Assembly: GCA_015061625.1 (NCBI GenBank)
Contig: SUWG01000001.1
Coordinates: 174,220 to 238,219 of the forward strand
DNA length: 64,000 bases
Reading direction: 5' to 3'
DNA from: Lentisphaerota bacterium
GTDB taxonomy: Bacteria; Verrucomicrobiota; Lentisphaeria; Victivallales; Victivallaceae
In this document: positions 15,875 through 46,935 of the stretch, in pieces
Numbering within the stretch: position 1 is the first letter of the stretch
How the letters are laid out: every line of letters starts with the position of its first letter
Position numbers and translations under genes: made by a program
The notes under the pieces: model-generated
The model's database searches: none
Told to the model about the DNA's origin: nothing
What the model saw: the letters and a program-made list of their open reading frames with translations, nothing else

Positions 15875-16075
15875 CCGATAAACAAAGTTTGACAGCAACC
15901 GCCCGCCGGGAAGTAACACCCACTGGCTCCGGCGGACAAGGTGTACTGTGTACTCGACCGAACCGGTGTCCGATGACTTGACAAGAAAAAAGCCCGCGAA
16001 CCGCCGCCGGTTTTAATTTTCCGGAAAATTTAATGCTGCCGGGATATGGCCAGCCAGCCGTAACAACCACTATAT

Positions 16076-16200
16076 CCGGCGGATGGATCGTGAGGCAAGG
16101 TCGACGTCAAGTCAAGGCGGAGGTGAGGGAGTGTACCGTGTACTCGACCGAACCGGTGTCCGATGACTTGACAAGAGAAAAGCCCGCGAACCGCCGCCGG
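16076..16200 (+). repeat. Inverted-repeat element, copy B
   Basis: Outer arms CCGGCGG/CCGCCGG and inner arms GTCAAGTC (left) and GACTTGAC (right). The apical part is GAGT-GTAC-CGT-GTAC-TCGA. Within P3 the left GGTGAGG faces the right CCGAACC, with tandem G-A mismatches. Orientation is defined by the GGCAAGGTCG motif on the plus strand. Confidence 0.85.
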
Positions 16201-16265
16201 TTTTAGTTTTCCGGAAAATTTAATGCTGCCGGGATATGGCCAGCCAGCCGTAACAACCACTATAT

Positions 16266-16389
16266 CCGGCGGATGGATCGTGAGGCAAGGTCGACGTCAA
16301 GTCAAGGCGGAGGTGAGGGAGTGTACTGTGTACTCGACCGAACCGGTGTCCGATGACTTGACAAGAGATTGCCCGCGAACCGCCGCCGG
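16266..16389 (+). repeat. Inverted-repeat element, copy C
   Basis: Same arms as copy B, with loop TGT and the right-hand GAGATTGCCCGC intact, so the outer GGCAA/TTGCC pairing is also present. It abuts the 3' end of the TonB-like gene. Confidence 0.85.
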
Positions 16390-16391
16390 TT

Positions 16392-17414
16392 TTAATTTTC
16401 GTGGATCAATGTCACGGTGAAGTATATTCTTTCCGGCGGCACCGGCAGACGGCTGAAAGTACGCAGCATCTCTTCCACAGAACGGTTGACCGCCGCATTG
16501 GGACTGCGCCGGATGATCCTGCCGGTAAAATTGCCTCTGGTGTCGATCTCCACAGAAATCTGCACGGCAGTTTCACGGGTGATGAAAACTCCGGCAGGCG
16601 GCTGCCAGCGGTTTTGAATGATCGGAATGACCTGCCGGATATAAGCATTGCGCCTTGCCTCCATATCACGCGTGGCTCCACCGGCGGGAGTACGGCTGTC
16701 AACTTCACCTCTGGCCTGCCCGGCATCACGGTTGCCGGTGCGGGTATTCTGATTGGTATTGGTGCCGCCGCCGTAACGCTTGTTGGGGTCGAAATTTCCG
16801 GCATTGGGGTCGGTGTGGACACTTTCCCTTTCCCGGCGTTGACGCTCCTGCTCCTGACGGCGGCGTTGCTCGGCGGCACGCTGTTGACGTTGACGCTCCT
16901 GCTCCTGACGGCGGCGTTGTTCAGCCTGTTGACGCTGCCGCTGTTGCTCCTGTTGTCTGCGCTGTTCGGCTTCACGCTGTTGGCGTTGTCGCTCCTGCTC
17001 CTGACGGCGGCGTTGTTCAGCCTGCTGACGCTGCCGCTGCTGCTCCTGTTGTCTGCGCTGTTCGGCTTCACGCTGCTGCCGCTGCTGTTCCTGTTGTCTG
17101 CGCTGTTCGGCTTCGCGCTGCTGACGTTGACGCTCCTGCTCCTGACGGCGTTGTTCGGCAGTGTTATCCGGAGCGGGCGGTTCCGGCGGGGGGGCGGGCG
17201 GCGGAGTTTCACCGGCAGTGCCGGTCACCGGACGTCTTTCCGGCGGCCCGATCTCCGGAGCATGGGAGGGGTCAAGACCGCCAAGTTCCACTTTGAATAC
17301 GATCTCCCGCTGTTTTTCCTCATCATGCATCAGCCAATACCAGCCCACGGGCCCGAATATCGCAAGGATATGGACCAGTAAGATGATAATGAAAATCGAG
17401 GAACGGCGCACCAT
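16392..17414 (-). CDS. TonB/TolA-like energy-transducing protein
   Basis: 340 residues. A single N-terminal membrane anchor (SIFIIILLVHILAIFGPVGW) and a proline-rich segment (TPPPAPPPEPPAP) lead to a long Q/R/E-rich helix of about 115 residues built from near-repeats of EQERQRQQREAEQRRQQ. A Gly/Asn-rich linker and a C-terminal TonB/TolA-type domain of ~85 residues follow (YIRQVIPIIQNRWQPPAG ... PVPPERIYFTVTLI). With the TolR/ExbD- and TolQ/ExbB-like genes immediately upstream it forms a complete proton-driven complex linking inner and outer membranes. The helix-rich middle resembles TolA, the C-terminus TonB; no TolB or Pal gene follows, so TonB- versus Tol-function is open. Confidence 0.83.
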   Translation of the reverse strand: MVRRSSIFIIILLVHILAIFGPVGWYWLMHDEEKQREIVFKVELGGLDPSHAPEIGPPERRPVTGTAGETPPPAPPPEPPAPDNTAEQRRQEQERQRQQREAEQRRQQEQQRQQREAEQRRQQEQQRQRQQAEQRRRQEQERQRQQREAEQRRQQEQQRQRQQAEQRRRQEQERQRQQRAAEQRRRQEQERQRRERESVHTDPNAGNFDPNKRYGGGTNTNQNTRTGNRDAGQARGEVDSRTPAGGATRDMEARRNAYIRQVIPIIQNRWQPPAGVFITRETAVQISVEIDTRGNFTGRIIRRSPNAAVNRSVEEMLRTFSRLPVPPERIYFTVTLIHEN

Positions 17415-17417
17415 GAC

Positions 17418-17828
17418 TTAATTGCCCTCCGCCTGGGTGACCAGTGAAGCATTCCGGAAACCGCAACTGCGCGCCAGACGGAGCAGCTCCAATACTCCGC
17501 CATATTCCTGTTCGTTGTCGCCGCGCACCAGCAGATCGGGCTGGGGATTTTGCGCCGACAATTCCCGGAGCCTTGCGGCGAGATCTTCTGCGCTGATTTC
17601 CTGACGGTCGAGGAAATATTTGCCCTCTTTATCCACTTCGACGGTGATGAAATTTTCTTCCGGCAAAGCCTCGCCATCCATTTCCGGCGGCGAAACATTG
17701 GTGCCGTATTCCATCAGCGGCATGGTGATCATAAAGGCGATCAGCAACAGAAATGTCAGGTCGAGCAGCGGCGTGATGTTGATCTGGTCGATCGCCGCCA
17801 TCGGGGTACGGTTTCTTCTGCGGCGCAT
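17418..17828 (-). CDS. ExbD/TolR-type biopolymer transport protein
   Basis: 136 residues. A cytoplasmic start MRRRRNRTPMAAIDQINITP with the conserved 'INITPLLDLTFLLLIAFMIT' helix carries the membrane Asp (residue ~22) required for proton flow in ExbD/TolR. A periplasmic domain follows (ITVEVDKEGKYFLDRQEISA ... GFRNASLVTQAEG). It acts with the TolQ/ExbB homologue encoded 3 nt upstream and the TonB/TolA-like protein 3 nt downstream. Confidence 0.92.
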   Translation of the reverse strand: MRRRRNRTPMAAIDQINITPLLDLTFLLLIAFMITMPLMEYGTNVSPPEMDGEALPEENFITVEVDKEGKYFLDRQEISAEDLAARLRELSAQNPQPDLLVRGDNEQEYGGVLELLRLARSCGFRNASLVTQAEGN

Positions 17829-17831
17829 GAT

Positions 17832-18596
17832 TCAGAGATCCTTTCCGGCATCGTCTTTGGAAGCAAATTTCAACTGGGAAAGTTTCACACAGACCATGAA
17901 TTCCTCGGCGAAGTTATCCATCGTCACGGTCAGATGGCGGATAGTTCCGGTGAGCAAATTGTAGCCGACCAGCGACGGGATCGCCACGACCAGACCGGCC
18001 ACGGTGGTAAGCAATGCACCGGCCACCCCCGGAGCCAGAGCGGTGAAGTCACTTTTACCGGCCGCCGCAATACCGCAAAATGCCATCATCACCCCCCAGA
18101 CCGTACCGAAAAGTCCGCAGAAAGGACTCAAACTGACCAAAGTGGCCAATACACCGATACGGGTTTCCAACTCTTTCAACTGGGAAGAAATTTCTCTTTC
18201 CAATACCGCTTCGACCGCATTGTACTGCGCTTCAGAAAGTTTGCAGGGCGCAGGAACCCCTTTGGCATTGGTACCGTTGGCAGAGTAAAAGTCGAGCAGT
18301 TTTTCCACTCCGGCCCGGTAGATGGCGGCGGCGGGACCGGGATTCATTTCCGCTTCCCGGAGCAAAGCGGAAGTGAGCATATTATCTTCGCCGTAGTGCT
18401 GAAACAGCGAAACAAAGCGCGCGGCCAGCCGTTTGGCACGATAGAGCGACCACGCCTTATCCAGCATCACGGTCCAGGTGAGAATACTGCCGATAAGCAG
18501 CAATACGACGATCGCTTTGCCGACCGAGTCACTGTTTTCATAGGCGTAATAAACTCCGGGGGTGTTGGCAACGGATGCAAAGAAAAAAGCGGTCAT
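17832..18596 (-). CDS. MotA/TolQ/ExbB-type proton channel protein
   Basis: 254 residues with three hydrophobic segments. The family core is GVLATLVSLSPFCGLFGTVWGVMMAF and VAGALLTTVAGLVVAIPSLVGYNLL near residues 155-225, the hallmark of the ExbB/TolQ channel. An N-terminal membrane segment (AIVVLLLIGSILTWTVMLDKAW) is normal for the family. It forms the inner-membrane channel that energises TonB/TolA. First gene of the three-gene operon; divergent from the ROK gene across a region holding a perfect 10-2-10 palindrome. Confidence 0.93.
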   Translation of the reverse strand: MTAFFFASVANTPGVYYAYENSDSVGKAIVVLLLIGSILTWTVMLDKAWSLYRAKRLAARFVSLFQHYGEDNMLTSALLREAEMNPGPAAAIYRAGVEKLLDFYSANGTNAKGVPAPCKLSEAQYNAVEAVLEREISSQLKELETRIGVLATLVSLSPFCGLFGTVWGVMMAFCGIAAAGKSDFTALAPGVAGALLTTVAGLVVAIPSLVGYNLLTGTIRHLTVTMDNFAEEFMVCVKLSQLKFASKDDAGKDL

Positions 18597-18649
18597 TATG
18601 GTCTCCAGGATAAAATTTTGTTAAAAAAATAGGATTCTGCCCTTTATAA

Positions 18650-18671
18650 AATATAATACAGGTATTATATT
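18650..18671. promoter_or_regulatory. 22-bp palindrome between tolQ-like and ROK genes
   Basis: AATATAATAC-AG-GTATTATATT, two perfect 10-bp arms with a 2-bp centre. It overlaps the -10 of the tolQ-like promoter, so it looks like an operator for a dimeric repressor. The regulator is not identified; a Fur-family protein is encoded at 47.5 kb but the sequence is not a canonical Fur box. Confidence 0.6.
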
Positions 18672-18693
18672 CTACAAGGAGATATTCTCACAA
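18664..18693 (-). promoter_or_regulatory. Promoter of the TolQ-TolR-TonB-like operon
   Basis: On the minus strand TTGTGA (18693-18688), 18 bp, TATAAT (18669-18664). The -10 lies inside the 22-bp palindrome. Confidence 0.55.
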
Positions 18694-18718
18694 AAAATGA
18701 AAAAAAGGAAAATTTATC

Positions 18719-19702
18719 ATGGCTCTTTTATTGGGATTCGATATCGGCGGCACCAAAATCGGCATCGGGCTGGGCGATCAGACCGGTAAACTTTACGGCA
18801 CCTGCCGCCGCGACAACCGCAACACCGACCCGGCAGAGGTGCTGCCGTGGATGGTTTCTGAAGCCCAAAGGCTGGTCAGCGAAGCGGGGTTGACCATGGA
18901 TAAGGTCGATGCATTCGGCATTTCCGCCCCGTTCCCGGCGGATGCCGCCAGAGGTATCATGACCAAACCGACCAACAACCCCTTGTGGCGGGATGTGCCG
19001 ATCCTCGATTACCTCAAAGAGAATCTGGGCATCCCCGGCTGTTTTGAGAATGATGCCAACTGCGGAGCATTGGCAGAGTGGTTTTTCGGTGCGGGCAGAG
19101 GATGCAAGGACTTCATCTATCTGACCATGAGCAGCGGCATCGGCGGCGGGATCATTGCCGCCGGGCGTCTGGTGCGCGGCGGCAAGGCTTTGAGTGCCGG
19201 TGAATTGGGCCATATCTGCATCCAGCTGGATGGCCGGGAGTGTTCCTGCGGCATCAAGGGATGCTATGAAGCTTATTGCGGCGGCGTGGCACTGGCTAAA
19301 AGAATGCGTGAGGAGATCGCCGGACACCCGGATTCACTGCTCAATGAATTATCCGGCAACGATCCGGCCAAACTGGATATGCATCTGCTGGAAAAAGCGT
19401 ACCGGGCCAATGATGCCTATGCGGTATCTCTCTGGCAGGAAATGAGTTTGCGCAGTGCGCAGGCATTCGGCCTCTACATCAATGCATTCAATCCGGAAAA
19501 ACTCGTTCTCGGCACTCTGGCGTGGGCGATCGGCGACATTTACATCGACCCGATCCTGGAGCATCTGGATAAATTCTGCTGGGAAGAACCCCGGAAAAAC
19601 TGTCAGATCGTCTGCAGTGAACTCAAACGGGAGATCGGCAGTTACGCCGGTATCGCCGCCGCCATGAACTACCTCAAGGAAAACGGCAAACTGGAAATTT
19701 GA
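18719..19702 (+). CDS. ROK-family sugar kinase (glucokinase-like)
   Basis: 327 residues. ATP-binding LLGFDIGGTKIGIGLGD at the N-terminus, the catalytic Asp in FENDANCGALAEW near residue 115, MSSGIGGGIIAAGRL, and the ROK zinc site GHICIQLDGRECSCGIKGCYEAY (one His and three Cys). These enzymes phosphorylate glucose, N-acetylmannosamine or related hexoses. No N-terminal HTH is present, so this is a kinase rather than a ROK repressor. The substrate cannot be assigned. The next gene starts a few bases after the stop. Confidence 0.9.
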   Translation: MALLLGFDIGGTKIGIGLGDQTGKLYGTCRRDNRNTDPAEVLPWMVSEAQRLVSEAGLTMDKVDAFGISAPFPADAARGIMTKPTNNPLWRDVPILDYLKENLGIPGCFENDANCGALAEWFFGAGRGCKDFIYLTMSSGIGGGIIAAGRLVRGGKALSAGELGHICIQLDGRECSCGIKGCYEAYCGGVALAKRMREEIAGHPDSLLNELSGNDPAKLDMHLLEKAYRANDAYAVSLWQEMSLRSAQAFGLYINAFNPEKLVLGTLAWAIGDIYIDPILEHLDKFCWEEPRKNCQIVCSELKREIGSYAGIAAAMNYLKENGKLEI

Positions 19703-19707
19703 ACATT

Positions 19708-20670: not shown

Positions 20671-21192
20671 TCACCGGGCGTTGGATAACAATTTGTTTTT
20701 CAAAGTCTGATCGGCGATATCCCGAACCAGTATTTCTGTGATCTGCCGCATACTTTTGCCGGATAAACCGGGAATCGTGACCGTGGTAACGTGTCCGTCA
20801 GCCATCATCACCGGCAGCCGGTCGCCGGTGCAGAATTCCGGTTTGACGAATACCACCGGCACATCGGCCGCATTGCCCGGCATTCTGCCGATATTGCCGA
20901 TGTAGACAAAGGATGAAAAATCCATTCCGGCACAGTATGGTGCGATATCAGCGAGCGTAGCAGGCATATTGTCATTATGGTCAAGAATATACATTGCTAT
21001 ACCGGTGCCGATCTGTTTGAGTTCCATCTCATAATTGACCTGACTGGCCTGATTGCGGGCCTGAACCGCCGGAACTGCCGGAGAATTTTCTGCCGGGGCG
21101 GCTCCGGCTTTCTCCTCATCTTTGCCGCATCCGGTCAATAAAGCAGCACTGAAAATCATCGCACACCAAAGGGAACCGTTTTTTTTCATCAT
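20671..21192 (-). CDS. Small lipoprotein with pseudopilin-like H-x-DG C-terminus
   Basis: 173 residues with signal peptide and lipobox LLTGCG, then a low-complexity Ala/Pro/Glu linker. The body has 'IGTGIAMYILDHNDNMPATL' and PVMMADGHVTTV. The 'Y..DN...P' plus 'DGH' pattern resembles the C-terminal module of the DUF1559/H-X9-DG prepilin-like proteins common in Planctomycetes and Lentisphaerae, but here it is attached to a lipoprotein signal rather than a prepilin helix. Function unknown. It has its own promoter and faces the oxidoreductase gene; the stops are adjacent. Confidence 0.7.
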   Translation of the reverse strand: MMKKNGSLWCAMIFSAALLTGCGKDEEKAGAAPAENSPAVPAVQARNQASQVNYEMELKQIGTGIAMYILDHNDNMPATLADIAPYCAGMDFSSFVYIGNIGRMPGNAADVPVVFVKPEFCTGDRLPVMMADGHVTTVTIPGLSGKSMRQITEILVRDIADQTLKNKLLSNAR

Positions 21193-21226
21193 GACACCTC
21201 CTTATCGGTTATCAGCCTTCTGCCGG

Positions 21227-21255
21227 AATATACTCCGGCGGCAGATAAAATGCAA
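21227..21255 (-). promoter_or_regulatory. Promoter of the small lipoprotein gene
   Basis: On the minus strand TTGCAT (21255-21250), 17 bp, TATATT (21232-21227), about 35 bp from the ATG at 21192; AAGGAGG precedes that ATG. Confidence 0.7.
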
Positions 21256-21296
21256 TATCTTCCCCAAAAAATTTCCGGAAAAATTTTCCCCGGCAG

Positions 21297-28772: not shown

Positions 28773-29021
28773 ATGCTCAACAATGATGACAAGATCCGTC
28801 AGGCGATGCTGCTGGGCGTGGGTTTGGATAATAAAGACGGTCACAAACGCATCACCAAAGGTGACAACTTCTATCTGGCCGGCGGTTCGGAGGAAACTCA
28901 TGAACGCATGACCGAAACCGTGATCAAATTCAACGAAAAACTCGCCCGTAAAGGCAAGCATTTGCAGGAACTTTCCCGTGAGGAGTTCCACGATATGATG
29001 CGTGAAGCTGAAGGGAAGTGA
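28773..29021 (+). CDS. Small hypothetical protein between ruvA and priA
   Basis: 82 residues from the ATG at 28773, which is preceded by ACGGGG. Highly charged, no signal peptide or membrane segment: KIRQAMLLGVGLDNKDGHKR near the start, then a helix-rich C-terminal half (TETVIKFNEKLARKGKHLQE). I do not recognise a family. Its stop is followed within 10 nt by the priA ATG, and AAGGGAAG at its end serves as the priA ribosome-binding site. Codon use and close packing argue that it is real. Confidence 0.7.
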   Translation: MLNNDDKIRQAMLLGVGLDNKDGHKRITKGDNFYLAGGSEETHERMTETVIKFNEKLARKGKHLQELSREEFHDMMREAEGK

Positions 29022-29028
29022 CCGTTTC

Positions 29029-31257
29029 ATGATCGCCAAGGTCATCACCGACATCTCCCTCGACCGGGAATTCGATTACCTCGTGCCGGAAGCATTGACC
29101 AAAGTCGTGCGCACCGGCAGTGCGGTCACGGTGCCATTCGGCAGAAGTGTGCGTACCGGTTACGTTCTGGGTCTGGCGGAAACTTCCGCTTACGACCCCG
29201 CCAGACTGCGCTATCTGACCGGTATCGCCGCCGACCGCCCGGCAATTCCGGAAAATCTGATCAAACTGGGCAAATGGATCGCTGAATACTACTGCGCTTC
29301 CGGTGAACACGCCATCCGCACTTTGCTCCCCGCCGCCATCCGCAGCGGCAGGGTCAGGGAGAAAAAAATCCGCCTCTACTCCATTGCCGATCTGACGGCG
29401 GCAGAAAAATATATCATCGATCACGCTAAAGAGACCCGACTTGCCAAACGGGTCAAAGTATTGCAAATGCTCATCCGCAAAGGCGAGGGCCCCAAAGCGG
29501 AATTCGCCACCGAGGTCGATTTTTCCGCTTCCGCATTCGACGCTCTTTGCAAAGATGGCCTGATCAAAGTGCGGGAAGAAGCCGCCGCCAACGATTTCGA
29601 TAACGGTATGGAAACTTTGCCCGATACCCCGCTGGAACCGACCGCCGATCAGCGCAAAGCACTCCAACAGATCAGCGATATGCTGGAAAAGAAAACTCCT
29701 TCTCATGTGCAACTGCTTTTCGGCACGACCAACAGCGGCAAAACGGAAGTCTATCTGCAGGCGATCAGTAAAGTATTGAATATGGGAAAATCCGCCATCG
29801 TATTGGTGCCGGAAATTTCCCTCACCCCCCAGACCGTGCGCCGTTTCCGGGCAAGATTCGGCAAAAAATTAAGCGTTCTGCACAGCCGTTTGAGCGACCG
29901 GGAACGGTTCGATGAGTGGAACCGGATCAATTCCGGTAAAGTACAGATCGCCGTCGGCGCACGCTCGGCTCTCTTTGCCCCCTTTGACAATCTGGGATTG
30001 ATCGTCGTCGATGAGGAGCATGACAGCAGTTACAAACAATCCGAATCCCCCCGCTACCACGCCAGAGATGTGGCAGTTGTGCGGGCTAAACTGGAAAACG
30101 CCTGTGTCATCCTCGGTTCCGCCACCCCGTCGGCCGAATCACTCTACAATGCCCAAAATGGCAAATTCCTGATGTGCCGCATGGCGGCGCAGGTGGATAA
30201 CAAACCCGCACCGGTCATCCATATCGTTGACCGCCGGCGTGATCCCGCCCCCACTGAAGGCATGAGCAACCTGCTCTCCCCCATACTCATCCACGCCGTC
30301 GAAGAACGCCTCGAACGGGCCGAACAGGCCATTTTGTTCCTCAACCGCCGGGGCTATGCCCGCACTTTGTGCTGTCCGCAATGCGGCTATGAAGCCCGCT
30401 GCCCGGAGTGTTCAATAAATTACAACTACACTTACAGCCGCAGCCGGGAAGTTTTGAGCTGCCACCTCTGCGGCGGCGTCGTACCCGCCCCATCCGCTTG
30501 TCCGGATTGCGGATTTCAGGAAATCCGCTACTTCGGCAGCGGTACCGAAAAACTGGAAAGCTGCGCCAGAGCCGTATTCCCCGGTGCCAGGATCGGCAGA
30601 ATGGATTCCGATCTGATGCGCTCCGCCGATGATTATGAAGTGGTGCTGGATAAATTCCGCCGGGGCAGACTCGATATCCTCGTGGGGACCCAGATGATCG
30701 CCAAAGGACTACACTTCCCCGGCGTGACCCTCGTCGGCGTGGTCAATGCCGATCTGGGACTTTCCATGCCCGATTTCCGCGCCCAGGAAAGAACTTTTCA
30801 AATGCTCACCCAGGTCGCCGGCAGAGCCGGCAGAGGCGAAAGACGCGGCGAAGTCATCTTCCAAACCACCCGCGACAGCGATGTGCTGCGCTTCGCCGCC
30901 GATCTGGATTTTGAGGGATTTTCCAAATTCGACCTCGAATTCCGCGAAATGCTCGGCTATCCGCCATTCACCCGCCTCATCGCCATATTTTTCAAGGGTG
31001 AAAAAGAATCTGCCGTCGCCGATTATGCCGCATTTTTCGCCGAAAAACTGGCCGCTTATCAACACGATAAAGTCAGAATCACCCCCCCGGCTCCCGCCCC
31101 GGTGGAAAAAATCCGTAACCAATTCCGCTATATGATGACCGTCAGAGGCAACGGCCTGAAAACCATCCGCGAAGCAATACGCATTCTGGCTCTGCATCAT
31201 ACCCCGCCCAACGGCGTCTCCGTCGCCGTCGATGTCGATGCCCAGCATCTTATGTAA
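29029..31257 (+). CDS. priA: Primosomal replication restart helicase PriA
   Basis: 742 residues from the ATG at 29029, chosen because AAGGGAAG lies about 10 nt upstream. N-terminal 3'-DNA-binding domain (FDYLVPEALTKVVRTGSAVT), Walker A FGTTNSGKTEVYLQ, DEEH box LIVVDEEHDSS, and GSATPSAES. Four zinc-binding Cys pairs lie between the helicase lobes (CCPQCGYEARCPEC, CHLCGG, CPDCGF), followed by VGTQMIAKGLHFPGVTLVGV and QVAGRAGRGERRGEV. Restarts stalled forks by loading the replicative helicase. End of the co-directional run. Confidence 0.95.
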   Translation: MIAKVITDISLDREFDYLVPEALTKVVRTGSAVTVPFGRSVRTGYVLGLAETSAYDPARLRYLTGIAADRPAIPENLIKLGKWIAEYYCASGEHAIRTLLPAAIRSGRVREKKIRLYSIADLTAAEKYIIDHAKETRLAKRVKVLQMLIRKGEGPKAEFATEVDFSASAFDALCKDGLIKVREEAAANDFDNGMETLPDTPLEPTADQRKALQQISDMLEKKTPSHVQLLFGTTNSGKTEVYLQAISKVLNMGKSAIVLVPEISLTPQTVRRFRARFGKKLSVLHSRLSDRERFDEWNRINSGKVQIAVGARSALFAPFDNLGLIVVDEEHDSSYKQSESPRYHARDVAVVRAKLENACVILGSATPSAESLYNAQNGKFLMCRMAAQVDNKPAPVIHIVDRRRDPAPTEGMSNLLSPILIHAVEERLERAEQAILFLNRRGYARTLCCPQCGYEARCPECSINYNYTYSRSREVLSCHLCGGVVPAPSACPDCGFQEIRYFGSGTEKLESCARAVFPGARIGRMDSDLMRSADDYEVVLDKFRRGRLDILVGTQMIAKGLHFPGVTLVGVVNADLGLSMPDFRAQERTFQMLTQVAGRAGRGERRGEVIFQTTRDSDVLRFAADLDFEGFSKFDLEFREMLGYPPFTRLIAIFFKGEKESAVADYAAFFAEKLAAYQHDKVRITPPAPAPVEKIRNQFRYMMTVRGNGLKTIREAIRILALHHTPPNGVSVAVDVDAQHLM

Positions 31258-31307
31258 AATGATGTGGTGAATCGGGGGAAGGGGAATACAAAAGGTGCGA
31301 TCCGACC

Positions 31308-31428
31308 GGTGGATGCAGTGCGAGGCAAGGTCGCAGCCAAATCAAGGCGAAAGCGAGGGAGTGTATAACCATACTCGACCGAGCTTGAGTCCGCCGATTT
31401 GGCAAGAGATTGTCCGCAATGCGCCACC
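31308..31428 (+). repeat. Inverted-repeat element, copy D
   Basis: Divergent copy downstream of priA. Outer arms GGTGG/CCACC; P1 GCCAAATC/GATTTGGC instead of GTCAAGTC/GACTTGAC; P2 GGCG/CGCC; P3 AAGCGAGG/CCGAGCTT with tandem G-A mismatches; constant GAGT/TCGA loop; P4 GTAT/ATAC with loop AACC. The changes in P1 and P4 occur on both strands together, preserving pairing. Confidence 0.85.
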
Positions 31429-31475
31429 GCAGGTTTGATTTTTCACCCAAAATCAGAATAATAATCAACACATCC

Positions 31476-31600
31476 TTACTCGCGAAGCGAGCGCTTCACT
31501 TTCGCCGCAAGGCGAAAAGCTTCACATTGCGGAGCAATGCTTCACGCCGGGAAGAATTCCCGGCACTTCACGTTGATTTGCGGCACGCAAATCAACACCC
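31476..31600. repeat. Array of short hairpins separated by CTTCAC
   Basis: Successive perfect hairpins with the spacer CTTCAC between most: CTCGC-GAA-GCGAG (31479-31491), TTTCGCC-GCAA-GGCGAAA (31500-31517), ATTGC-GGA-GCAAT (31526-31538), GCCGGGAA-GAA-TTCCCGGC (31546-31564), GTTGATTTGC-GGCAC-GCAAATCAAC (31572-31596). No credible gene in this part of the 623-bp gap. Confidence 0.85.
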
Positions 31601-31768: not shown

Positions 31769-31794
31769 AAAACAATTTTGCTTCGCTTTGCTTC

Positions 31795-31866
31795 ACTTTC
31801 GCCGCAAGGCGGAAAACTTCACATTGCGGAGCAATGCTTCATGCCGGGAAGAATTCCCGGCACTTC
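31795..31866. repeat. Second, shorter CTTCAC hairpin array
   Basis: Repeats three of the hairpins of the first array in the same order: TTTCGCC-GCAA-GGCGGAAA (31798-31815), ATTGC-GGA-GCAAT (31823-31835) and GCCGGGAA-GAA-TTCCCGGC (31843-31861), again spaced by CTTCAC or CTTCAT. It ends just before the 3' end of the BspA-like gene. Confidence 0.85.
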
Positions 31867-31880
31867 ACATTAATAATTGC

Positions 31881-34151
31881 TTACCGCCTTGTCACCTTAC
31901 ACCAGCCGGGGAAAGCTCCTTCTGCGACCTGACAATCCCGTGGAATTGAAATCGCTTTCAAACTGACACAGTAGATAAATGCATCTTTTTCAATGACGGT
32001 AACGCTGTCAGGCACAGTTATTGCGGACAAACGGCGGCAATGCGAAAACGCATCGGCAGTGATAACCGTTACCCCATCCGGAATAACGCAACGGCTAACG
32101 GCATGGTTTATTACTCCGGTAACTTTTTTACCATCCTCACTTAACACGCATACTCCGATGCCTTCGGCCAATCCTGCAAGCCGGGCATTTTCTGCTTCCC
32201 GGTCAGCACAGAGGCTTGCTGCCTGCTGATACAATCTTTGCATTTGCTGCTGCTGATTGCTGACAAATTCCAGATATTCTCTCTGCATTTCCAGATAACG
32301 GCGTTGGGCTTCGGCATAAGCCGCCGCATTGTCACTCTCTCCGGGTTCCCGGTGGATGACCCGGCAGCCGTCATAAAAAACATCTTCACCCAACCGGCAA
32401 TTTTTAACTATTGAAACCGACTCCAGCGAAAATGACCGGAACCAGCCTTTATTAAACGCCTCATCCCCGATATACGTCACACTGTCGGGAATGAAAACGC
32501 TGACCAGTGATGAGCAGTTGTAAAACGCCCCATCCCCGATAGAAACCACTCCATCGGGAATTATCACTTCCGTAAGATCACTGCACCCCTCAAAAGCCCG
32601 GTCGCCGATGGCAGTCACCCCATCCGGAATGACACATCCGGTAATACTTTTATCCGTAACACCGATCACCGTTTTACCATCGTCACTTAAAATGCACACC
32701 TCAAAGCCCAGAGCGATCCTTCCCTTTTCCAATTTTTCTCTCTGTTCCTGATCGAGTGCTTCCGCTTCCCGGCCCGATCTTAAGATTTCCCGGATCAATC
32801 TTGTGATTTCCAACTGACGGGCTCTGGCATTTTCTGCTTCCACCGAACTTTGCCAACGTATTTCAATGCGGGTGGAAAGATCAAAAGAGATCCGGTCAAA
32901 ACGGCAATTCCCCGGCAGGGAAACCCGGCTTATCTGACCGAAAAACAATGCATCATTGCCAAATGAGCGATTGCCGATTTCAGTCACACTGTCAGGCACA
33001 AAAACACTGGTCACCCGGCTGTCGATAAATACATAATCTGCGATTCTCACCACCCCATCCGGCACAATGTAATGACCGGAACCGCTGACCGGAAAATACA
33101 ATAATACTTTTTTCCGGTTGTCGATCAATGCTCCGCATTCATCAAGGGTGAAGACCGGATTACCGGATGCAACTGCCACTGCTTTGACCTTATAGAATGC
33201 GGCTTCCCCGATTTCAGTTATTTGAACCGGGATCGTGATATTCAAATTTGCACACAGCGCAAATGTCCTGGTCCCGATGGCAGTCACACTGACCGGGATC
33301 GTAACTGCAGTCAGACTTTTGCAGTTGTAAAACAGATCGTTGGCAAGGGCCGTAATTCCGGCTGGTATGGTGATCGAAGTCAAACTTTCACAGTTGTAAA
33401 ATGCACATACTCCGATACTTCTCAAACTTGAAGGCAAAGTTGCCGAAGTAAGTTTTTTACAACCGTCAAAAACACTGTTGCCGATCGTTACCACTCCTTC
33501 AGGAATGACGATGGAAGTCAGATTTTCACACCCCTGAAATGCTCCGTACTCGATCGAAGTAACACTGCCGGGGATCGTGACCGAAGTCAGATTTTTACAA
33601 CCGGCAAATGCCTTGCGCCCGATCGAAGTGATGCCGGATGGCAAAGTTACCGAAGTCAGACTTTTGCAGTTGTAAAACAGATCGTTGGCAAGGGCCGTAA
33701 TTCCGGATGGTATGGTGATCGAAGTCAAACTTTCACAGTTGTAAAATGCACATACTCCGATACTTCTCAAACTTGACGGTAAAGTTGCCGAAGTAAGTTT
33801 TTTACAACCGTCAAAAACACTGTTGCCGATCGTTACCACTCCTTCAGGAATGACGATGGAAGTCAGATTTTCACACCCCTGAAATGCTCCGTACTCGATC
33901 GAAGTAACACTGCCGGGGATCGTGACCGAAGTCAGATTTTTACAACCGGCAAATGCCCTGCGCCCGATGCGCGTCACCCCATCCGGAATGACTGCTGAAA
34001 CGGCACTTTCCTGACAGTAGGTCACAGTCGTACCTTCCTGATTGAATCTCATGCCCTGTTCTCTGGCGGCCTGTAACTCCGCCTCACGGTTTCCGGCAAA
34101 AAGCATATTACTCAAAGTGAATACCGCCAACAGAAAAATGATTTTTTTCAT
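31881..34151 (-). CDS. BspA-like secreted leucine-rich-repeat protein
   Basis: 756 residues with an N-terminal signal peptide (KKIIFLLAVFTLSNMLFAG). The body is LRR_5/BspA repeats of ~23 residues with consensus IGxxAFxxCxxLTSVTIPxS. At least ten repeats lie in the first half; repeats resume near residues 490-570 and again at the C-terminus. Non-repeat charged segments (RQLEITRLIREILRSGREAE and a Gln-rich QQQQMQRLYQQ helix) separate the blocks. Five consecutive repeats (115 residues) are almost exactly duplicated. BspA proteins are surface or secreted adhesins of gut and oral bacteria. No sorting or anchoring domain is evident. GGAGAAAG precedes the ATG. Confidence 0.88.
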   Translation of the reverse strand: MKKIIFLLAVFTLSNMLFAGNREAELQAAREQGMRFNQEGTTVTYCQESAVSAVIPDGVTRIGRRAFAGCKNLTSVTIPGSVTSIEYGAFQGCENLTSIVIPEGVVTIGNSVFDGCKKLTSATLPSSLRSIGVCAFYNCESLTSITIPSGITALANDLFYNCKSLTSVTLPSGITSIGRKAFAGCKNLTSVTIPGSVTSIEYGAFQGCENLTSIVIPEGVVTIGNSVFDGCKKLTSATLPSSLRSIGVCAFYNCESLTSITIPAGITALANDLFYNCKSLTAVTIPVSVTAIGTRTFALCANLNITIPVQITEIGEAAFYKVKAVAVASGNPVFTLDECGALIDNRKKVLLYFPVSGSGHYIVPDGVVRIADYVFIDSRVTSVFVPDSVTEIGNRSFGNDALFFGQISRVSLPGNCRFDRISFDLSTRIEIRWQSSVEAENARARQLEITRLIREILRSGREAEALDQEQREKLEKGRIALGFEVCILSDDGKTVIGVTDKSITGCVIPDGVTAIGDRAFEGCSDLTEVIIPDGVVSIGDGAFYNCSSLVSVFIPDSVTYIGDEAFNKGWFRSFSLESVSIVKNCRLGEDVFYDGCRVIHREPGESDNAAAYAEAQRRYLEMQREYLEFVSNQQQQMQRLYQQAASLCADREAENARLAGLAEGIGVCVLSEDGKKVTGVINHAVSRCVIPDGVTVITADAFSHCRRLSAITVPDSVTVIEKDAFIYCVSLKAISIPRDCQVAEGAFPGWCKVTRR
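33316..34005 (-). repeat. 345-bp near-identical internal duplication in the BspA-like gene
   Basis: The landmark CTTTTGCAGTTGTAAAACAG occurs at 33316 and 33661, exactly 345 bp (115 codons, five 23-residue repeats) apart. The two blocks differ by only a few substitutions, indicating a recent duplication or gene-conversion event; the boundaries given are approximate. Confidence 0.85.
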
Positions 34152-35647: not shown

Positions 35648-35655
35648 TTTGCATC

Positions 35656-41521: not shown

Positions 41522-41537
41522 ATTATCCACACCCTTC

Positions 41538-41580
41538 AAAAAAATTCTGTTGTGCCGCCCTTACCGGGGTGACACAACAG
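41538..41580 (-). terminator. Intrinsic terminator after the RND operon
   Basis: On the minus strand an 8-bp stem CTGTTGTG/CACAACAG (41580-41573 with 41554-41547), with further G/C pairing inside, is followed by AATTTTTTT. Confidence 0.75.
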
Positions 41581-41607
41581 ATAAAATACATCTGCGTAAA
41601 AACAAAA

Positions 41608-44600
41608 TCAAGCCTGTTTTCTGAATATTGCAGTTAACTTCTGCAAAATATTCTTTTTCCCTTTTTCCGGAACAAAGAGAAAGTATAAAGCGGGAATAAC
41701 GTACAACGTAAGCAGTGATGATATGGTCAATCCGCCAACCACGCCGACCCCGCAACTGGAACGCAGTTCCGACCCCAAACCGGTGCCGAATGCCATCGGC
41801 AGCATACCCGCCACCGCCGCAATACTGGTCATCACGATCGGCCGGAATTTTTCCTGCACTGCGATCAGCATCGCCTCATGCGGATCGATACCGTTTTTCT
41901 GTTGCACACCGCATTCATCAAGGATCAGAATGGCGTTATTCACCACGATACCGATCATCATCACGCCGCCCAGCAGCCCCATCATCGACATCGACATTCC
42001 GAAACAGTAAAGCGTCAGATACATTCCGAGAAAACCCAGCGGCACAGTGAACATGATCAGCAACGGTTTTATCCATGATTCCATGATCCCGGCGATCAGC
42101 AGATAGGTGAGCAACGCCGCCAGAGCGATGACCCGGATGAATTCTTTGGCCGTTTCATTCATCATTTCCACACTGCCGCTCATGCGGACGGAGTATCCCG
42201 GCGGCAGCACACTTAATACTTCCTGTTCGATGCGCCGGGAAACATCACCCAGCGCATAGCCCGGAGCCGTATTGGCATAGAGCCACATCGTGCGCACCTT
42301 GTCGTAACGGTTGATAACCACCGGGCGCGCCTCTTCCACGATATCCGCCAGCACTTCCGTACCCAGCGGATTATTGTCCTTGACTGCCGCCGCCGTCTGG
42401 CGCAACTGGACATCTCCGGTTTCCCGGCGGTTGCGCAAACGGATATCAAAGGTGCGTGACCCCATGCGGTAGTCGCCCACTTCAATACCGTCAAGCGAAC
42501 CGAGCAGATAACGGTACAACTCTTCAGAAGTCATCCCCAGATTCTGCAAGATCGTGCGGTCGGGAATGATGCTGATATTGGTTTTGCGTTCCCGGCGTGA
42601 GGAGTCGAGGTCGCGCACCATACCGGTACCCGGCAGGATCTCCATCACCCGCTGTTCCGCCTGTTCCAGCACTTCCAGATCCGGCCCGTTGATCACACAC
42701 CTTATTTCTGCGCCACTGCCGCCGAAAGTTGCCGGTATGGATAAGGTTATCAGGCAGTTGTCAAGGTAACTTAATTCCTCCCGGAGCAAGGCCTGCAATT
42801 CATAAATGGTTTGAGTGCGTTCATTTTTGCCGGTGGTTTTGATGTTGATCTGCCCCAGATAGACTGCCGTGCCGACCTGACCGCGGCTGGAATTGGAAGT
42901 ACCGACAGAAACTGACATACCGGTAATGAATCCGCCGTTTTCTTTGCCGTACTTTGCTTCCAGTCTGGCGGCGGCTTCCCGGATGAGTCTTTCGGTGGTT
43001 TCCAGATTGTAGGATGTCGGGAATTCAAATTTGATCCGGATCTCGCCCTGATCGCAGTAGGGCAGAAATGACAAACCGACCTGCGGGATAACCAATTTCC
43101 ACACTGCCAGCGAAATTATTACGATCACCAGCAGGAAATTCAGCGGATGACGGGCCACGAATTTGATGCTTCTGCCGAATATCCGGCAGAGCCAATCATA
43201 TCCGATATCCCACGGGATGAATAATTTTTCCAGTAAACTCTTCTTCTTTTTTTCACCGTCATATTTTCCCTTGAGCAATACGCACGCCAGGATCGGGGTC
43301 AGAGTAAAACTGATGAAAAGCGAAACCAGTGTCGCCGCCACCATCACTCCGGCAAACGGCACCATCATACTGCCGATACGCGAGGTCATCATCATCACCG
43401 GCACGAATACCACCACGTTGGTCAATGCACTGGCGGAAACTGCGCCAATAACTTCACCGGTCCCCTTTTCGGCGGCAGTTTTGATATCCTCTTTGCGTTT
43501 GAGGTGGTTGAAAATGTTTTCGATCACCACGATCGAGTTGGTCACCAGCACCCCTACGGAACAGCCCAGCGAAAGCAGGGTCATGATGTTGAATGAATAA
43601 TCCAGATAAGCCATTGCCGCAAAGGTCACGACCACCGAGATCGGCATGGAGATCATGACGATAAAGGTCGAGCGCGGATCATGCAGAAAGAGGAAGAGCA
43701 GCACCGCCGTAAGAATGATACCGGTAAGAATACTGCTCCACGCATCATCCACCGAGGCCTGAATGAATTCACCGGAATCTTTGAACCATACCAGTTCCAT
43801 ACCGGTCGGCAATTCGCCTTTGTTTTTCATCTCCTCAAATTTGCGGCGTACCCCGGCGATAACTTCCAAAGCGTTGGCATCGCCCTTTTTGACGATGTTG
43901 AATGTCGCAGCCGGCCGGCCGTTGACAAAAGCCTTGCTGCGCACTTCCCGGCTCTGCAGACGCACTTCTGCAATGTCGCGCAAATAGACCCGTTTACCGT
44001 CAAAAGTGCCGATCTCCAGATTGCGGATCTCATCCAGCGAGCGGTAATCACCGGCAAAAGTGACGTTTTTTTCCACCTCATCGACCTGAATACGGCCCAG
44101 CGGACGGCGGATATTATTCTGTTGAAGCCGGGCGACGATGTGGTTGATGTCGATATTCATGGCGGCAAGTTTCGTCCGGTCAAGCAGAATGTGTATCTGC
44201 ATTTCATTGGCACCGTAAACCCGCACTTCACCGACTCCCGGCACGGAAGCGATACGGTCGGCGATCACATCTTCGGCATAGTCGTAAAGGTCATCCTGCG
44301 TGCGGTCACCGACCAGAAATGCCTGAATAACGGTCGTGGCATTGGTGTCGATTTTGCGGATAACGGGTTCTTTGGCCCCATCCGGCAGATCTTCCCGGAT
44401 GCGGTTAAGTGCCTCGCGGATATCCGTGGCGGCAACGTCAACGTCGGTACCCATGACGAATTCCAACTGGATTTGCGCCTGATCTTCCATAGCGACACTG
44501 GTGATGTGGCGGATGCCGTCAATACTGGAAACGGCATCTTCGATGCGGCGGATGATCTCCGCCTCGATCTCTTCCGGACTGGCTCCCTGATATTCACAGC

Positions 44601-44742
44601 GCACCAGGATCGTCGGTATCTCCATACTGGGCAGCAGGTCGATACTGATACGTTCATAAAGAGAGGCTCCGATCATGACCAGCACGATGATGAATGCGGT
44701 CATGGCGATCGGGCGTCGGACAGATAGTGAAGCGATATTCAT
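41608..44742 (-). CDS. RND-family efflux pump, inner-membrane transporter
   Basis: 1044 residues, the usual AcrB/MexB length. N-terminus SVRRPIAMTAFIIVLVMIGA with the typical first helix, two large periplasmic loops and twelve transmembrane helices in two halves. In the first half, LSLGCSVGVLVTNSIVVIENIFNHLKR holds the conserved 'E-N' end of helix 4; the position of the usual proton-relay Asp pair reads CSVGVLVTNS, with Asn in place of Asp. The second half has LGGVMMIGIVVNNAILILDE. Drug or metal efflux cannot be distinguished. It follows the adaptor gene by 3 nt; no TolC-type outer-membrane gene is seen. Confidence 0.9.
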   Translation of the reverse strand: MNIASLSVRRPIAMTAFIIVLVMIGASLYERISIDLLPSMEIPTILVRCEYQGASPEEIEAEIIRRIEDAVSSIDGIRHITSVAMEDQAQIQLEFVMGTDVDVAATDIREALNRIREDLPDGAKEPVIRKIDTNATTVIQAFLVGDRTQDDLYDYAEDVIADRIASVPGVGEVRVYGANEMQIHILLDRTKLAAMNIDINHIVARLQQNNIRRPLGRIQVDEVEKNVTFAGDYRSLDEIRNLEIGTFDGKRVYLRDIAEVRLQSREVRSKAFVNGRPAATFNIVKKGDANALEVIAGVRRKFEEMKNKGELPTGMELVWFKDSGEFIQASVDDAWSSILTGIILTAVLLFLFLHDPRSTFIVMISMPISVVVTFAAMAYLDYSFNIMTLLSLGCSVGVLVTNSIVVIENIFNHLKRKEDIKTAAEKGTGEVIGAVSASALTNVVVFVPVMMMTSRIGSMMVPFAGVMVAATLVSLFISFTLTPILACVLLKGKYDGEKKKKSLLEKLFIPWDIGYDWLCRIFGRSIKFVARHPLNFLLVIVIISLAVWKLVIPQVGLSFLPYCDQGEIRIKFEFPTSYNLETTERLIREAAARLEAKYGKENGGFITGMSVSVGTSNSSRGQVGTAVYLGQINIKTTGKNERTQTIYELQALLREELSYLDNCLITLSIPATFGGSGAEIRCVINGPDLEVLEQAEQRVMEILPGTGMVRDLDSSRRERKTNISIIPDRTILQNLGMTSEELYRYLLGSLDGIEVGDYRMGSRTFDIRLRNRRETGDVQLRQTAAAVKDNNPLGTEVLADIVEEARPVVINRYDKVRTMWLYANTAPGYALGDVSRRIEQEVLSVLPPGYSVRMSGSVEMMNETAKEFIRVIALAALLTYLLIAGIMESWIKPLLIMFTVPLGFLGMYLTLYCFGMSMSMMGLLGGVMMIGIVVNNAILILDECGVQQKNGIDPHEAMLIAVQEKFRPIVMTSIAAVAGMLPMAFGTGLGSELRSSCGVGVVGGLTISSLLTLYVIPALYFLFVPEKGKKNILQKLTAIFRKQA

Positions 44743-44745
44743 CTC

Positions 44746-45948
44746 TTATTCCTCCGCGGCCGCTCCGGCTTCGGTCAGAAGTGAACCGTTGTTGATAAAG
44801 GTTTGTCCGGTAATGACGAAACGGTGTTCCAGCAAATCCCCGGCATTGAGGATCTCGGCGTAGCCCCGGTCAACGATGCCGCGCCGGATCTCCACGCTCT
44901 GCGCCCGGTTTTCGCCGTTGATGGTGTAGGCGATGAGAATGTCATTGGCGCGGAGCAGCACGGCGGATTCCGGCAGACCGTAACCTTCTCTTTCCACCAG
45001 AATAATATTCAATTCGCAAAGCATACCGCTGACCAGACCGGTGGATCGCGGCACGGAAATTTTCACTTTGAATGTGCGGCTTTCCGGGTCGATCGACGGG
45101 GCTTTGTAAGTGATCTGACTGCGGGCGACGGCCTGACCGTCACTGCCGGTGAAGTCCACGGCAGTTTCACCGGGAACGACCTGCTCATAATAGACGGCAC
45201 TCAAGAAGCAGATGACTTCCAGCTGATTGTGGTTTTCCAGCCGCAAGATCGGCTGACCGGAAGAAACATATTCGTTTTCTTCGACCATCGTATCGGTAAT
45301 GACACAGTCAAAGGGGGCGGTGATGACGGAATCGGCCAGATTTTTCCGGGCGATTTCCAGATTGCTGCGCGCCTGCTGCAACTGGGATTCGGCATTGGCG
45401 ACCTCGGCTTCGGCGGCGGTGACTGCGGCTTCGGCGGAAGCGACATCCATTTCGGCCTTTTTGAATTCCGTTTCCATGATTTCAAAGTCGGCAGTACTGA
45501 TCGCCTTGTTTTCCAACAGGTTTTTGGCGCGGTTATAGTTGCGCAAGGCCTGTTCCAGAGCGATTTTGGCGATATCTCTGGAAATTCTGGCGATATTCAA
45601 TGCGCTTTGCGAACTGGCGAGGGCGGCTTCACGCACTCTGATCTCATCTTCCTTGACCACCACCTGATTTCTCAACACCTGCCGGTCGATCTCAAAGAGG
45701 ACATCACCTTTTTTGACCACATCGCCCTCATCGACCCGGAGTAATTCCAAAGTGCCGCCGATCTTGGCGGAAATGGTGGCAAATTCAACCGGTTGTACGG
45801 TTCCCTGAACCGGGATACGCATCTGAAAAGTGCGTTTTTCCAACTGCGCCAGAGTTACTCTGGTAGTTTTTTCGCCGGATCGTTCCTGTTTTTTCTCACA
45901 ACCGGCGGCAAAGAACAGAATGCCAGCCAGCAGCCACGAATATTTCAT
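44746..45948 (-). CDS. RND pump periplasmic adaptor (membrane-fusion lipoprotein)
   Basis: About 400 residues. Signal peptide and lipobox LFFAAGCEKK, then the lipoyl/barrel-sandwich halves (VQPVEFATISAKIGGTLELL and VITAPFDCVITDTMVEENEY) flanking a long alpha-hairpin coiled coil (residues ~90-195, Ala/Glu-rich ARISRDIAKIALEQALRNYN). Beta-barrel and membrane-proximal domains follow. Start at 45948 rather than 45954 because GGGGGA is then 6 nt away. Forms a tripartite pump with the RND protein directly downstream. Confidence 0.9.
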   Translation of the reverse strand: MKYSWLLAGILFFAAGCEKKQERSGEKTTRVTLAQLEKRTFQMRIPVQGTVQPVEFATISAKIGGTLELLRVDEGDVVKKGDVLFEIDRQVLRNQVVVKEDEIRVREAALASSQSALNIARISRDIAKIALEQALRNYNRAKNLLENKAISTADFEIMETEFKKAEMDVASAEAAVTAAEAEVANAESQLQQARSNLEIARKNLADSVITAPFDCVITDTMVEENEYVSSGQPILRLENHNQLEVICFLSAVYYEQVVPGETAVDFTGSDGQAVARSQITYKAPSIDPESRTFKVKISVPRSTGLVSGMLCELNIILVEREGYGLPESAVLLRANDILIAYTINGENRAQSVEIRRGIVDRGYAEILNAGDLLEHRFVITGQTFINNGSLLTEAGAAAEE

Positions 45949-46165
45949 AATCATTCCCCCATTCTGAAAACATAGTTGGTTTTACCCGCATAACGGAGCA
46001 AAAAGTTCCATTATTTTATGCGTGCACGGGAAGAGATCGGATTTTTTTGCAAAAAAATTTTAAAATGGTGTCAGAAATATGTTTGCCCCGACACTATTAT
46101 CAGCGGAAACATCAAAACGATGTGAAAAAGAAAAACAAAAACAAAAAAAGAAAAGGAAAAAGAAA

Positions 46166-46513
46166 ATGAAAAAACTGCTCGCAACTCTCGCTCTCACCCT
46201 GATCGGATCAGCCGCTTTTGCCGGAGCCCAGGGAGGGCCCAAATCCGCTGATGAAAGAGTCAACGCCAACGGTGCCGACCGTTACGAAATCGTCTTCAAC
46301 GGCGGCGAACAGGCCCGCGTGGTGGTTGACGGTGACGGTGATACCGACCTCGACCTCTACATCTACGATGAAAACGGCAATCTGATCACCAAAGATGATG
46401 ACAATACTGATTACTGCATCTGCACCTGGACTCCGAGATGGACCGGTAAATTCATCATCCGTATCGTCAACCGCGGCAGTGTTTACAACGCTTACACTCT
46501 GCGTACCAACTGA
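46166..46513 (+). CDS. Small secreted protein consisting of a single PPC-like domain
   Basis: 115 residues from the ATG at 46166. Signal peptide KKLLATLALTLIGSAAFAGA, then about 90 residues resembling the bacterial pre-peptidase C-terminal (PPC) beta-sandwich: RYEIVFNGGEQARVVVDGDG, TDLDLYIYDENGNLI, TKDDDNTDYC and WTGKFIIRIVNRGSVYNAYT. PPC domains usually sit at the end of secreted proteases; a stand-alone copy is unusual. Asp-rich turns suggest Ca2+ binding. An in-frame ATG at 46079 would add a Lys-rich stretch and lose the signal peptide, so it is rejected. Followed by a strong terminator. Confidence 0.8.
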   Translation: MKKLLATLALTLIGSAAFAGAQGGPKSADERVNANGADRYEIVFNGGEQARVVVDGDGDTDLDLYIYDENGNLITKDDDNTDYCICTWTPRWTGKFIIRIVNRGSVYNAYTLRTN

Positions 46514-46533
46514 AACTTTCCCCCCCAACACCT

Positions 46534-46570
46534 GCGCTTCACAGCTCCCCGCTGTGGAGCGCGTTTTTTT
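46534..46570 (+). terminator. Intrinsic terminator of the PPC-domain gene
   Basis: 12-bp stem GCGCTTCACAGC / GCTGTGGAGCGC (one G-T pair) with loop TCCCC, followed by GTTTTTTT. Confidence 0.92.
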
Positions 46571-46636
46571 GTAACAAAGTCAAGCGGGGGTACGGGGTGC
46601 GGTTTTTCCGCCCGTCGGAATGACTTCCCCAATGCT

Positions 46637-46787
46637 ATTTTGCAAAGCAAAATCGGGGTATGGGGCGACAGCCCCATCAAGGGCGACAGCCCGCAAGAGT
46701 CGAAACAAACAAAACCCCGGCAGACTGCAAAAATCTACCGGGGGTACGGGGGGCAACGCCCCCTGTCAAGGGCGGTGCAAACCGCCC
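46637..46787. repeat. GC-rich hairpin array in the PPC-rubrerythrin gap
   Basis: Successive hairpins: ATTTTGC-AAA-GCAAAAT (46637-46653), TGGGGC-GACA-GCCCCA (46661-46676), GGGC-GACA-GCCC (46681-46692), GGGGGC-AAC-GCCCCC (46749-46763), GGGCGGT-GCAA-ACCGCCC (46770-46787). No gene is supported in this 421-bp gap. The array is followed by element copy E, mirroring the arrangement after priA. Confidence 0.8.
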
Positions 46788-46813
46788 GCCGAGCCGATCC
46801 ACACTGCGGCCTG

Positions 46814-46935
46814 ATTCGTCGCAGTGTGCGGCAAGGTCGCCGTCAAGTCAAGGCGGAGGTTGGGGAGTGTACGACTGTACTCGACCCAACCGACGACCGC
46901 CGACTTGACAAGAGATTGCCCGCAATGCGACGAAT
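46814..46935 (+). repeat. Inverted-repeat element, copy E
   Basis: Outer arms ATTCGTCGCA/TGCGACGAAT (perfect 10 bp), P1 GTCAAGTC/GACTTGAC, P2 GGCGG/CCGCC, P3 GGTTGGG/CCCAACC (fully paired, no G-A mismatches), constant GAGT/TCGA, P4 GTAC/GTAC with loop GACT. The right arm ends on the last base of the rubrerythrin stop codon. Confidence 0.88.

Follow-up and report, generated by a model that had tools for sequence, protein, structure and literature searches.

The question raised by this locus is what kind of sequence is represented by an imperfect hairpin of about 120-140 nt, of which four full copies (B, C, D and E) lie on the + strand of a 64,000-nt stretch of one contig, called the window throughout, two of them in a 190-bp tandem array and two single. 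The window belongs to the 2.7-Mb genome (G000) of a Lentisphaeria gut bacterium. The answer considered probable is a lineage-specific, high-copy, mobile palindromic repeat resembling repetitive extragenic palindromic (REP) sequences and miniature inverted-repeat transposable elements (MITEs), which occurs in a MITE form and in a solo form and whose folded strand would be recognised by a protein in copying or maintenance.

The four hairpins were found where the initial annotation had placed them and fold as it described, with matches of 127.5-149.1 bits to a covariance model (R1) built from 31 hairpin copies and used with a cut-off of E ≤ 0.1. Their core, GGGAGTGTA-N3..10-TACTCGACC, occurs four times in the window and in none of 100 shuffles. 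The unit comprises six short helices, conserved internal loops (an inner tandem G·A and wobble pairs) and a short end loop. The paired arm changes described earlier were correct, P1 being GTCAAGTC/GACTTGAC or GCCAAATC/GATTTGGC and P4 GTAC/GTAC or GTAT/ATAC, as was the replacement of the outer tandem G·A by normal pairs in E. The inner tandem G·A is constant while the stems vary, and the most conserved elements are the loops and the core, formed by this inner tandem G·A (GGAG opposite GACC), AAGG and GAGATT. One subtype also conserves GTTTTGC/GCAAGGC, in which two U·G pairs stand side by side. The outer stem had been described as different at every locus; instead it falls into families, and that of D is common to many MITE-type copies, as read by eye.

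Pairing is under selection on one strand of the repeat. For the covariation analysis, 138 copies were aligned with the guidance of the model and reduced to 105 at 90% identity, and the null was produced by a custom script, modelled on R-scape but distinct from it, which re-deals reconstructed substitutions on a tree. In this guided alignment, which is fitted to the model and hence biased towards the structure, 7 of 9,316 column pairs covary beyond the tree-based null (E < 0.05), without exception stem pairs. An earlier set of 100 copies likewise gave 7 covarying pairs, every one in stems, and a restricted test of the 29 stem pairs alone gave 20 significant ones. Changes on both sides were identified in 27 of the 29 stem pairs, and in 15 of 29 in an unguided MAFFT alignment of 31 copies. 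The paired fraction of cells is 94.5%, against 28.9-48.3% after sliding by 1-3 columns, and a shuffle control agrees. The selection on pairing proposed from the window alone is supported. As for the strand, the stem cells contain 255 G·U and 33 A·C, and of the two strands the + strand gives the more stable fold in 126 of 127 cases with RNA parameters and in 122 of 127 with DNA parameters; for these two reasons the + strand is taken as the strand under selection. The fold is kept across genera.

The search of the whole genome and its relatives with the covariance model, also suggested earlier, gave at least 131 matches in G000, a lower bound because 150 of 469 first-look candidates were scored; 123 of these matches were carried into later analyses, the omitted 8 being short or weak. 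With the core pattern relaxed slightly there are 49 occurrences in G000 and none for the reversed control. With stricter filters, matches were identified in 29 of 137 genomes of the order: 19 of the 34 of the same genus, nine spread over four further genera of the family and one of another family, whose single copy resembles the MITE of the genus and is possibly contamination. Among public named genomes the exact core is present in six stretches, three from metagenome-assembled genomes of Lentisphaeria or Lentisphaerae and three elsewhere by chance. Bare-core matches in Dyadobacter, Porphyromonas, Verrucomicrobiales and three viral contigs were rejected as chance, the full model matching the core only (13-21 bits). 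No Rfam family matched in the window (the best score in the region of E was 16.3 bits against a threshold of 50), and 14 loci gave tRNA and 5S only. Hairpin E had no match among plasmids and hairpin D none among phages, a single copy being compared with each collection. In the accessible portions of the open-licence literature, no publication describing a repeat of this kind in Lentisphaeria was met.

Hairpin copies help to explain assembly breaks, since the G000 contigs C7, C16, C25, C26 and C36 begin or end within about 100 nt of one. About ten near-identical hairpins of G000 are embedded in longer shared repeat blocks (CACGGGAAACCGCGCAGACCGCAGTCGAATGCAC...), at C12:17470, C1:25252, C25:20096, C39:437, C43:17219 and others; several contigs end in blocks of this type, so that the assembly breaks on them.

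The MITE form is a non-autonomous mobile element, as the initial annotation had suggested for the hairpin, and is recognised by inverted ends, 8-bp target duplications, near-identical copies and absence at orthologous sites. Among the loci then fetched, both ends with the core between them were detected 42 times, at 41 loci (L193 was counted twice) of G000, G008, G012 and G017; in the copies fetched from G020 the left ends are related, but the search for both ends did not retain these copies and they are outside this set. The element is about 276-286 bp long, with inverted ends of about 24 bp and the hairpin as its right half, and near-identical copies in G012 and G017 show sharp ends (left GATAATGTCCCGAATTTTGTGAAA, right TTTCACAAAAAATGAGACAATAAC). 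The targets are AT-rich and their 8-bp duplication, at one fixed offset, is perfect in 30 of the 42 and has 7 of 8 matches in 3 more (33 in all), against 13 of 197 with 7 or more matches in a random-pairing control. The left end carries an outward sigma70-type promoter resembling TTGACA-N17-TATATT in 34 of 42, at 92-95 nt and with a diverging spacer sequence; this is the only conserved promoter of the element and it faces away from the hairpin, on the opposite strand. Thirty MITEs have a called gene on both sides (19 tandem, 9 convergent and 2 divergent). The promoter was rejected as the driver of orientation, 15 left-hand genes being driven and 18 not. Along the contigs of G012, a genome in which the copies read are mostly MITEs, orientation is random: 45 of 68 loci follow the majority of their contig, against 47.2 expected (p 0.86).

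Turnover at orthologous loci was followed by comparing the regions of E and D across the 34 genomes of the genus. Alignments of rubrerythrin and priA stop at the gene ends, and among the flanks with an alignment reaching the gene end the E insertion is absent from 22 rubrerythrin-like ones and the D insertion from 15 of priA. Ordinary terminator-like hairpins often follow rubrerythrin in the relatives (by eye). Among 47 loci scanned, the priA end holds a MITE copy with its own duplication in G012, a divergent hairpin in G046 (104.5 bits) and a weak one in G017 (29 bits), and the rubrerythrin end a weak hairpin in G017 (25 bits). Members of the family thus arrive repeatedly at the same gene ends.

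Of the 123 copies examined in G000, 18 have both MITE ends, 10 the right end only and 95 neither pattern; these last, called solo, are all those left outside the other two classes and include 14 with the left end only and 5 at contig ends. For part of them the placement on gene 3' ends is polar: in 20 of 95 (one more at -30) a gene 3' end is no further than 15 nt from the right end, whereas the left end is so placed in 1 of 95, right-end contact being antisense and left-end contact sense by definition. At 19 junctions the outer arm begins at the stop codon, at CCA (one case) or a few nucleotides later, with outer-stem sequences that differ from one junction to another. The earlier description of every copy as lying immediately 3' of a gene is correct for the window, where C and E are at stop codons and D follows priA by 43 nt, and only partly so genome-wide. 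Gene positions were taken from a home-made gene caller, and the gene-context count placed 122 copies: 100 between two called genes (63 tandem, 29 convergent and 8 divergent), 2 inside called open reading frames (ORFs) and 20 at the edge of the fetched stretch. The reading of class II copies as insertions into terminator loops was rejected as a general rule, since their outer stems, read by eye in part of the 123 copies, run TTTT...AAAA and so have the polarity opposite to that of an intrinsic terminator. In such a terminator the U-tract follows the hairpin directly; by eye, a U-rich stretch comes only about 8 nt past the MITE hairpin, and class II has an A-run.

In other genera the hairpins adjoin tRNA 3' ends. 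An antisense hairpin lies within 180 nt at 8 of 24 distinct tRNA 3' flanks, a count that is not a genome frequency because the loci were chosen for their hairpin content, and 7 of these 8 begin directly at the T-run after CCA; many hairpin-free tRNAs have a similar T-run. Two further copies are about 35-40 nt from 5S rRNA ends. As a separate observation, in many tRNA genes the T-run comes right behind CCA and a terminator hairpin of its own is not visible, which looks as though the tRNA served as the terminator stem.

Some solo copies have expanded by tandem duplication and form mosaics with other palindromes. Isolated right-half copies (20 listed) outnumber left-half ones (7 listed), several of each being weak, at contig ends or opposite-strand palindrome matches. 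Four right-half copies of G000 (C1:5183, C22:75097, C35:19053 and C36:141325) start at or within 2 nt of the apex right behind a full copy, which suggests breakage or slippage at the hairpin tip. A strand bias within contigs is present in G000 (66 of 81 loci against 54.3 expected, p 0.00005), both in non-MITE copies (49 of 58 against 40.6, p 0.001) and, with p 0.08, in MITEs (16 of 19 against 13.5). With regard to a possible replication effect behind this bias, the GC skew at third codon positions in C36 and C35 weakly suggests that the hairpin strand is the C-rich strand, and C22 is neutral.

A mechanism for the mobile repeat can be proposed on these grounds. The MITE form would be inserted into its 8-bp targets by a DDE transposase acting in trans, IS256-like to judge by the ends, and the + strand would be recognised folded, by a protein, during copying or maintenance of the repeat, in line with proposals made for REP/REPIN systems. 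In abutting solo copies the selected strand coincides with the template strand of the gene, which makes single-stranded DNA a likelier folded species than mRNA, and the conserved promoter facing away from the hairpin inclines to the same side. For the solo form, whose placement is observed directly, the mechanism is more tentative: the hairpin may be an independent mobile unit, a folded single strand (DNA, or RNA copied back) joined by its right end, antisense, exactly onto gene 3' ends, as a bacterial counterpart of short interspersed nuclear elements (SINEs) or of the attC-like integration of a folded strand. This last proposal is regarded as rather doubtful.

Several observations weigh against the mobile repeat as so described. 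No transposase with matching ends was found. The IS256 transposase (PF00872) is absent from all 8 hairpin-rich genomes and, as a resident partner there, was rejected; it was identified in 6 of the 34 genomes of the genus and is complete in G016 alone, where the ends have just GATAAyGTCC in common. No autonomous partner, as a long end-to-end pair, was found in C36, C22 or the first 60 kb of C35. A Y1 transposase, as needed for mobilisation by a REP-associated tyrosine transposase (RAYT/Y1), was found neither in G000 nor in 6 others of 13 genomes; the remaining 6 have a match (5 over the cut-off), among them the hairpin-rich G008 and G015, and such mobilisation may apply elsewhere in the genus. 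For the solo form there is no known enzyme, and in 74 of the 95 solo copies the right end is not at a gene end. The strand bias of G000 was not reproduced in the few loci of G042 (11 of 14 against 10.3 expected, p 0.42). The conserved tandem U·G pairs would be no less compatible with RNA than with DNA, and the compensatory changes could partly stem from template switching from arm to arm, although such switching should erase the fixed G·A mismatches.

The same observations bear on the other explanations. If the covariation came from template switching altogether, the hairpin would be a part of a decaying palindromic transposon and its fold would have no selected function, and the tandem arrays and apex-starting half copies are indeed those of a slippage-prone palindrome. 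However, the inner tandem G·A mismatches and the tandem U·G persist while the flanking stems vary, the wobble pairs are strongly asymmetric between strands and the fold is maintained across genera, so that this explanation is regarded as very improbable. A fold that serves the host within the transcript of the abutting gene, whether as a terminator, as an insulator or to protect the 3' end of the mRNA, is suggested by the location at stop codons and tRNA ends, by the terminator-like hairpins at the rubrerythrin end of relatives and by the recurrence of different family hairpins at the priA end in G000, G012, G046 and, weakly, G017. Such a 3'-untranslated-region element is nevertheless unlikely: the selected strand is antisense, the RNA of the gene would hold the less stable complement, with A·C instead of G·U, and the class II outer stems have the wrong polarity for an intrinsic terminator.

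A structured RNA, foreseen in the initial annotation beside a protein-recognised hairpin, would suit the clear preference for one strand, but the antisense position disfavours a role in the mRNA of the abutting gene. A structured non-coding RNA of its own, with the + strand transcribed and the fold functional, for example a small RNA or the RNA of a SINE-like retroelement, with T-runs behind genes priming its A-rich 3' end, would account for the covariation, for G·U far above A·C and for the conserved tandem U·G and G·A; the solo copies that begin at the T-run behind CCA also agree with it, as does the excess of right halves, which resembles 5' truncation in a set with several weak members on each side. 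Opposed to it are the conserved MITE promoter, which faces away from the hairpin and is on the other strand, the absence of an Rfam match and, again, the antisense strand in abutting solo copies, and it is held to be possible but not likely. The reading retained as probable is that of the mobile repeat, with a fold putatively recognised by a protein.

The features of the window are collected in Table 1. B and C are units of the 190-bp tandem repeat, whose third unit, A, is truncated (~15930-16000), and are therefore not independent copies; they are attached to a MITE left end with its promoter. A gives a weak model match (C36:190149-190194, E 0.016). The right arm of C abuts the stop codon of a TonB-like gene (16392-17414, - strand; TonB_2), with the junction TAA-AACCGGCGGCGG. 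D is of MITE type; decay of its right end is such that the end search at 4 mismatches missed it, and no left end was seen. D follows priA (29002-31257, + strand; PriA domains). E is a solo copy whose outer stem reaches the stop codon of the rubrerythrin gene (46935-47468, - strand), with the junction TGA-TTCGTCGCATTGCGGGC, and the terminator-like hairpin forms the far end of the mosaic 3' region that holds it.

Table 1. Hairpins and associated features identified in the window
Feature	Position	Strand	Basis or remark
Remnant of the left terminal inverted repeat of the MITE from which the B/C array arose, GGCAATGTCCAAAATGTTGTGAAA	15780..15803	+	4 mismatches to pattern
Outward MITE promoter TTGACA-N17-TATATT, aimed at gene 14663-15712 (-)	15846..15874	-	sequence; locus L061
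Truncated hairpin A, right half; left half replaced by a small REP-like palindrome remnant, GGCTCCGGCGGACAAGG	15930..16000	+	
Full hairpin B	16070..16210	+	model match, 127.5 bits
Full hairpin C	16260..16399	+	model match, 142.5 bits
Full hairpin D, MITE type	31300..31440	+	model match, 149.1 bits
Degenerate right terminal inverted repeat of the MITE of D, TTTTTCACCCAAAATCAGAATAAT	31438..31466	+	by eye against intact right ends
Intrinsic-terminator-like hairpin with T-rich tail	46703..46744	-	by eye; rubrerythrin sense
Full hairpin E, solo type	46806..46946	+	model match, 132.7 bits

Other repeats were observed beside these features. A second short palindrome, of the ATCCGCCTTCGCCAAGGCTCCGGCGGACAAG type, is inserted at one same spot of the hairpin core at 15930-15945 of the window and at C35:813, C36:255083 and C43:57636 of G000, and a related palindrome is present in the outer arm of C26:57148, C36:139618 and G017 L138. 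Behind hairpin D, an 85-nt block of short palindromes occurs in two copies (31493-31577 and 31790-31874, 94%), and similar blocks occur elsewhere in G000. The TonB-like gene contains a six-copy periodic repeat of 45/51 nt (16785-17155), a gene with leucine-rich repeats of BspA type contains two direct repeats of 300 nt (33242-33886, 90%), and 33-nt tandem repeats with GCACGTTTTCAGGATTTTT (9476-9598) lie upstream of the ORF 8081-9445 (-).

With up to 131 matches in one genome and a spread over five genera of one family, the repeat is a large natural experiment on mobile DNA that retains a strand-specific fold. In the plainest reading, a MITE with an outward promoter and a very stable hairpin could rewire neighbouring genes. 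Independent movement of the solo form, if it occurs, would mean that small folded sequences can become attached to gene ends by a new route, with a bearing on the spread of REP, enterobacterial repetitive intergenic consensus (ERIC) and similar repeats and on the rebuilding of bacterial 3' ends.

Among known systems, attC sites carry the boxes RYYYAAC and GTTRRRY at their ends. Identity with attC was rejected, as none of the 19 junctions, read by eye, has RYYYAAC after its stop codon or CCA, no integrase search having been made. What the repeat has in common with attC and with group IIC introns is the folding of the bottom strand where genes end at 3'. Group IIC-attC introns are inserted in the direction opposite to that of the cassette genes, and a stem-loop lies upstream of the site at which group IIC introns insert (PMC7923331). 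No group II intron was among the Rfam results for the window and the 14 loci. With IS256-family-like MITEs the repeat shares inverted ends starting with GATAA.GTCC, which resemble IS256 ends, and 8-bp target duplications; it differs in its covarying hairpin and outward promoter, in the occurrence of the hairpin outside the MITE and in the lack of an IS256 transposase in the 8 hairpin-rich genomes. The ERIC and RU repeats of enterobacteria, of which RU-1 is described in the accessible text as a 127-bp intergenic MITE-like repeat (PMC2759123), are alike as intergenic MITE-like repeats and belong to another clade, a comparison made by description and not by sequence.

REP sequences and their doublets (REPINs) are likewise dispersed, extragenic, high-copy mobile DNA hairpins. 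The doublets are thought to be mobilised by RAYT transposases, and no Y1 transposase was found in G000. No terminal tag (GTAG or CGTC) is present in the hairpin consensus, read by eye. The repeat is filed as a member neither of IS256 nor of REP because no resident transposase of the former was found and because it has neither the size nor the tag of the latter, a REP being described, in the portion of the source available, as a 20-40-bp palindrome with a GTAG or CGTC tag (PMC3733652). The unit found here is of 120-140 nt with the inner tandem G·A fixed, and part of its copies have DDE-type ends and 8-bp duplications. What both have in common, according to the accessible part of a study of REP and REPIN (PMC3116915), is the presence of compensatory changes in a mobile hairpin.

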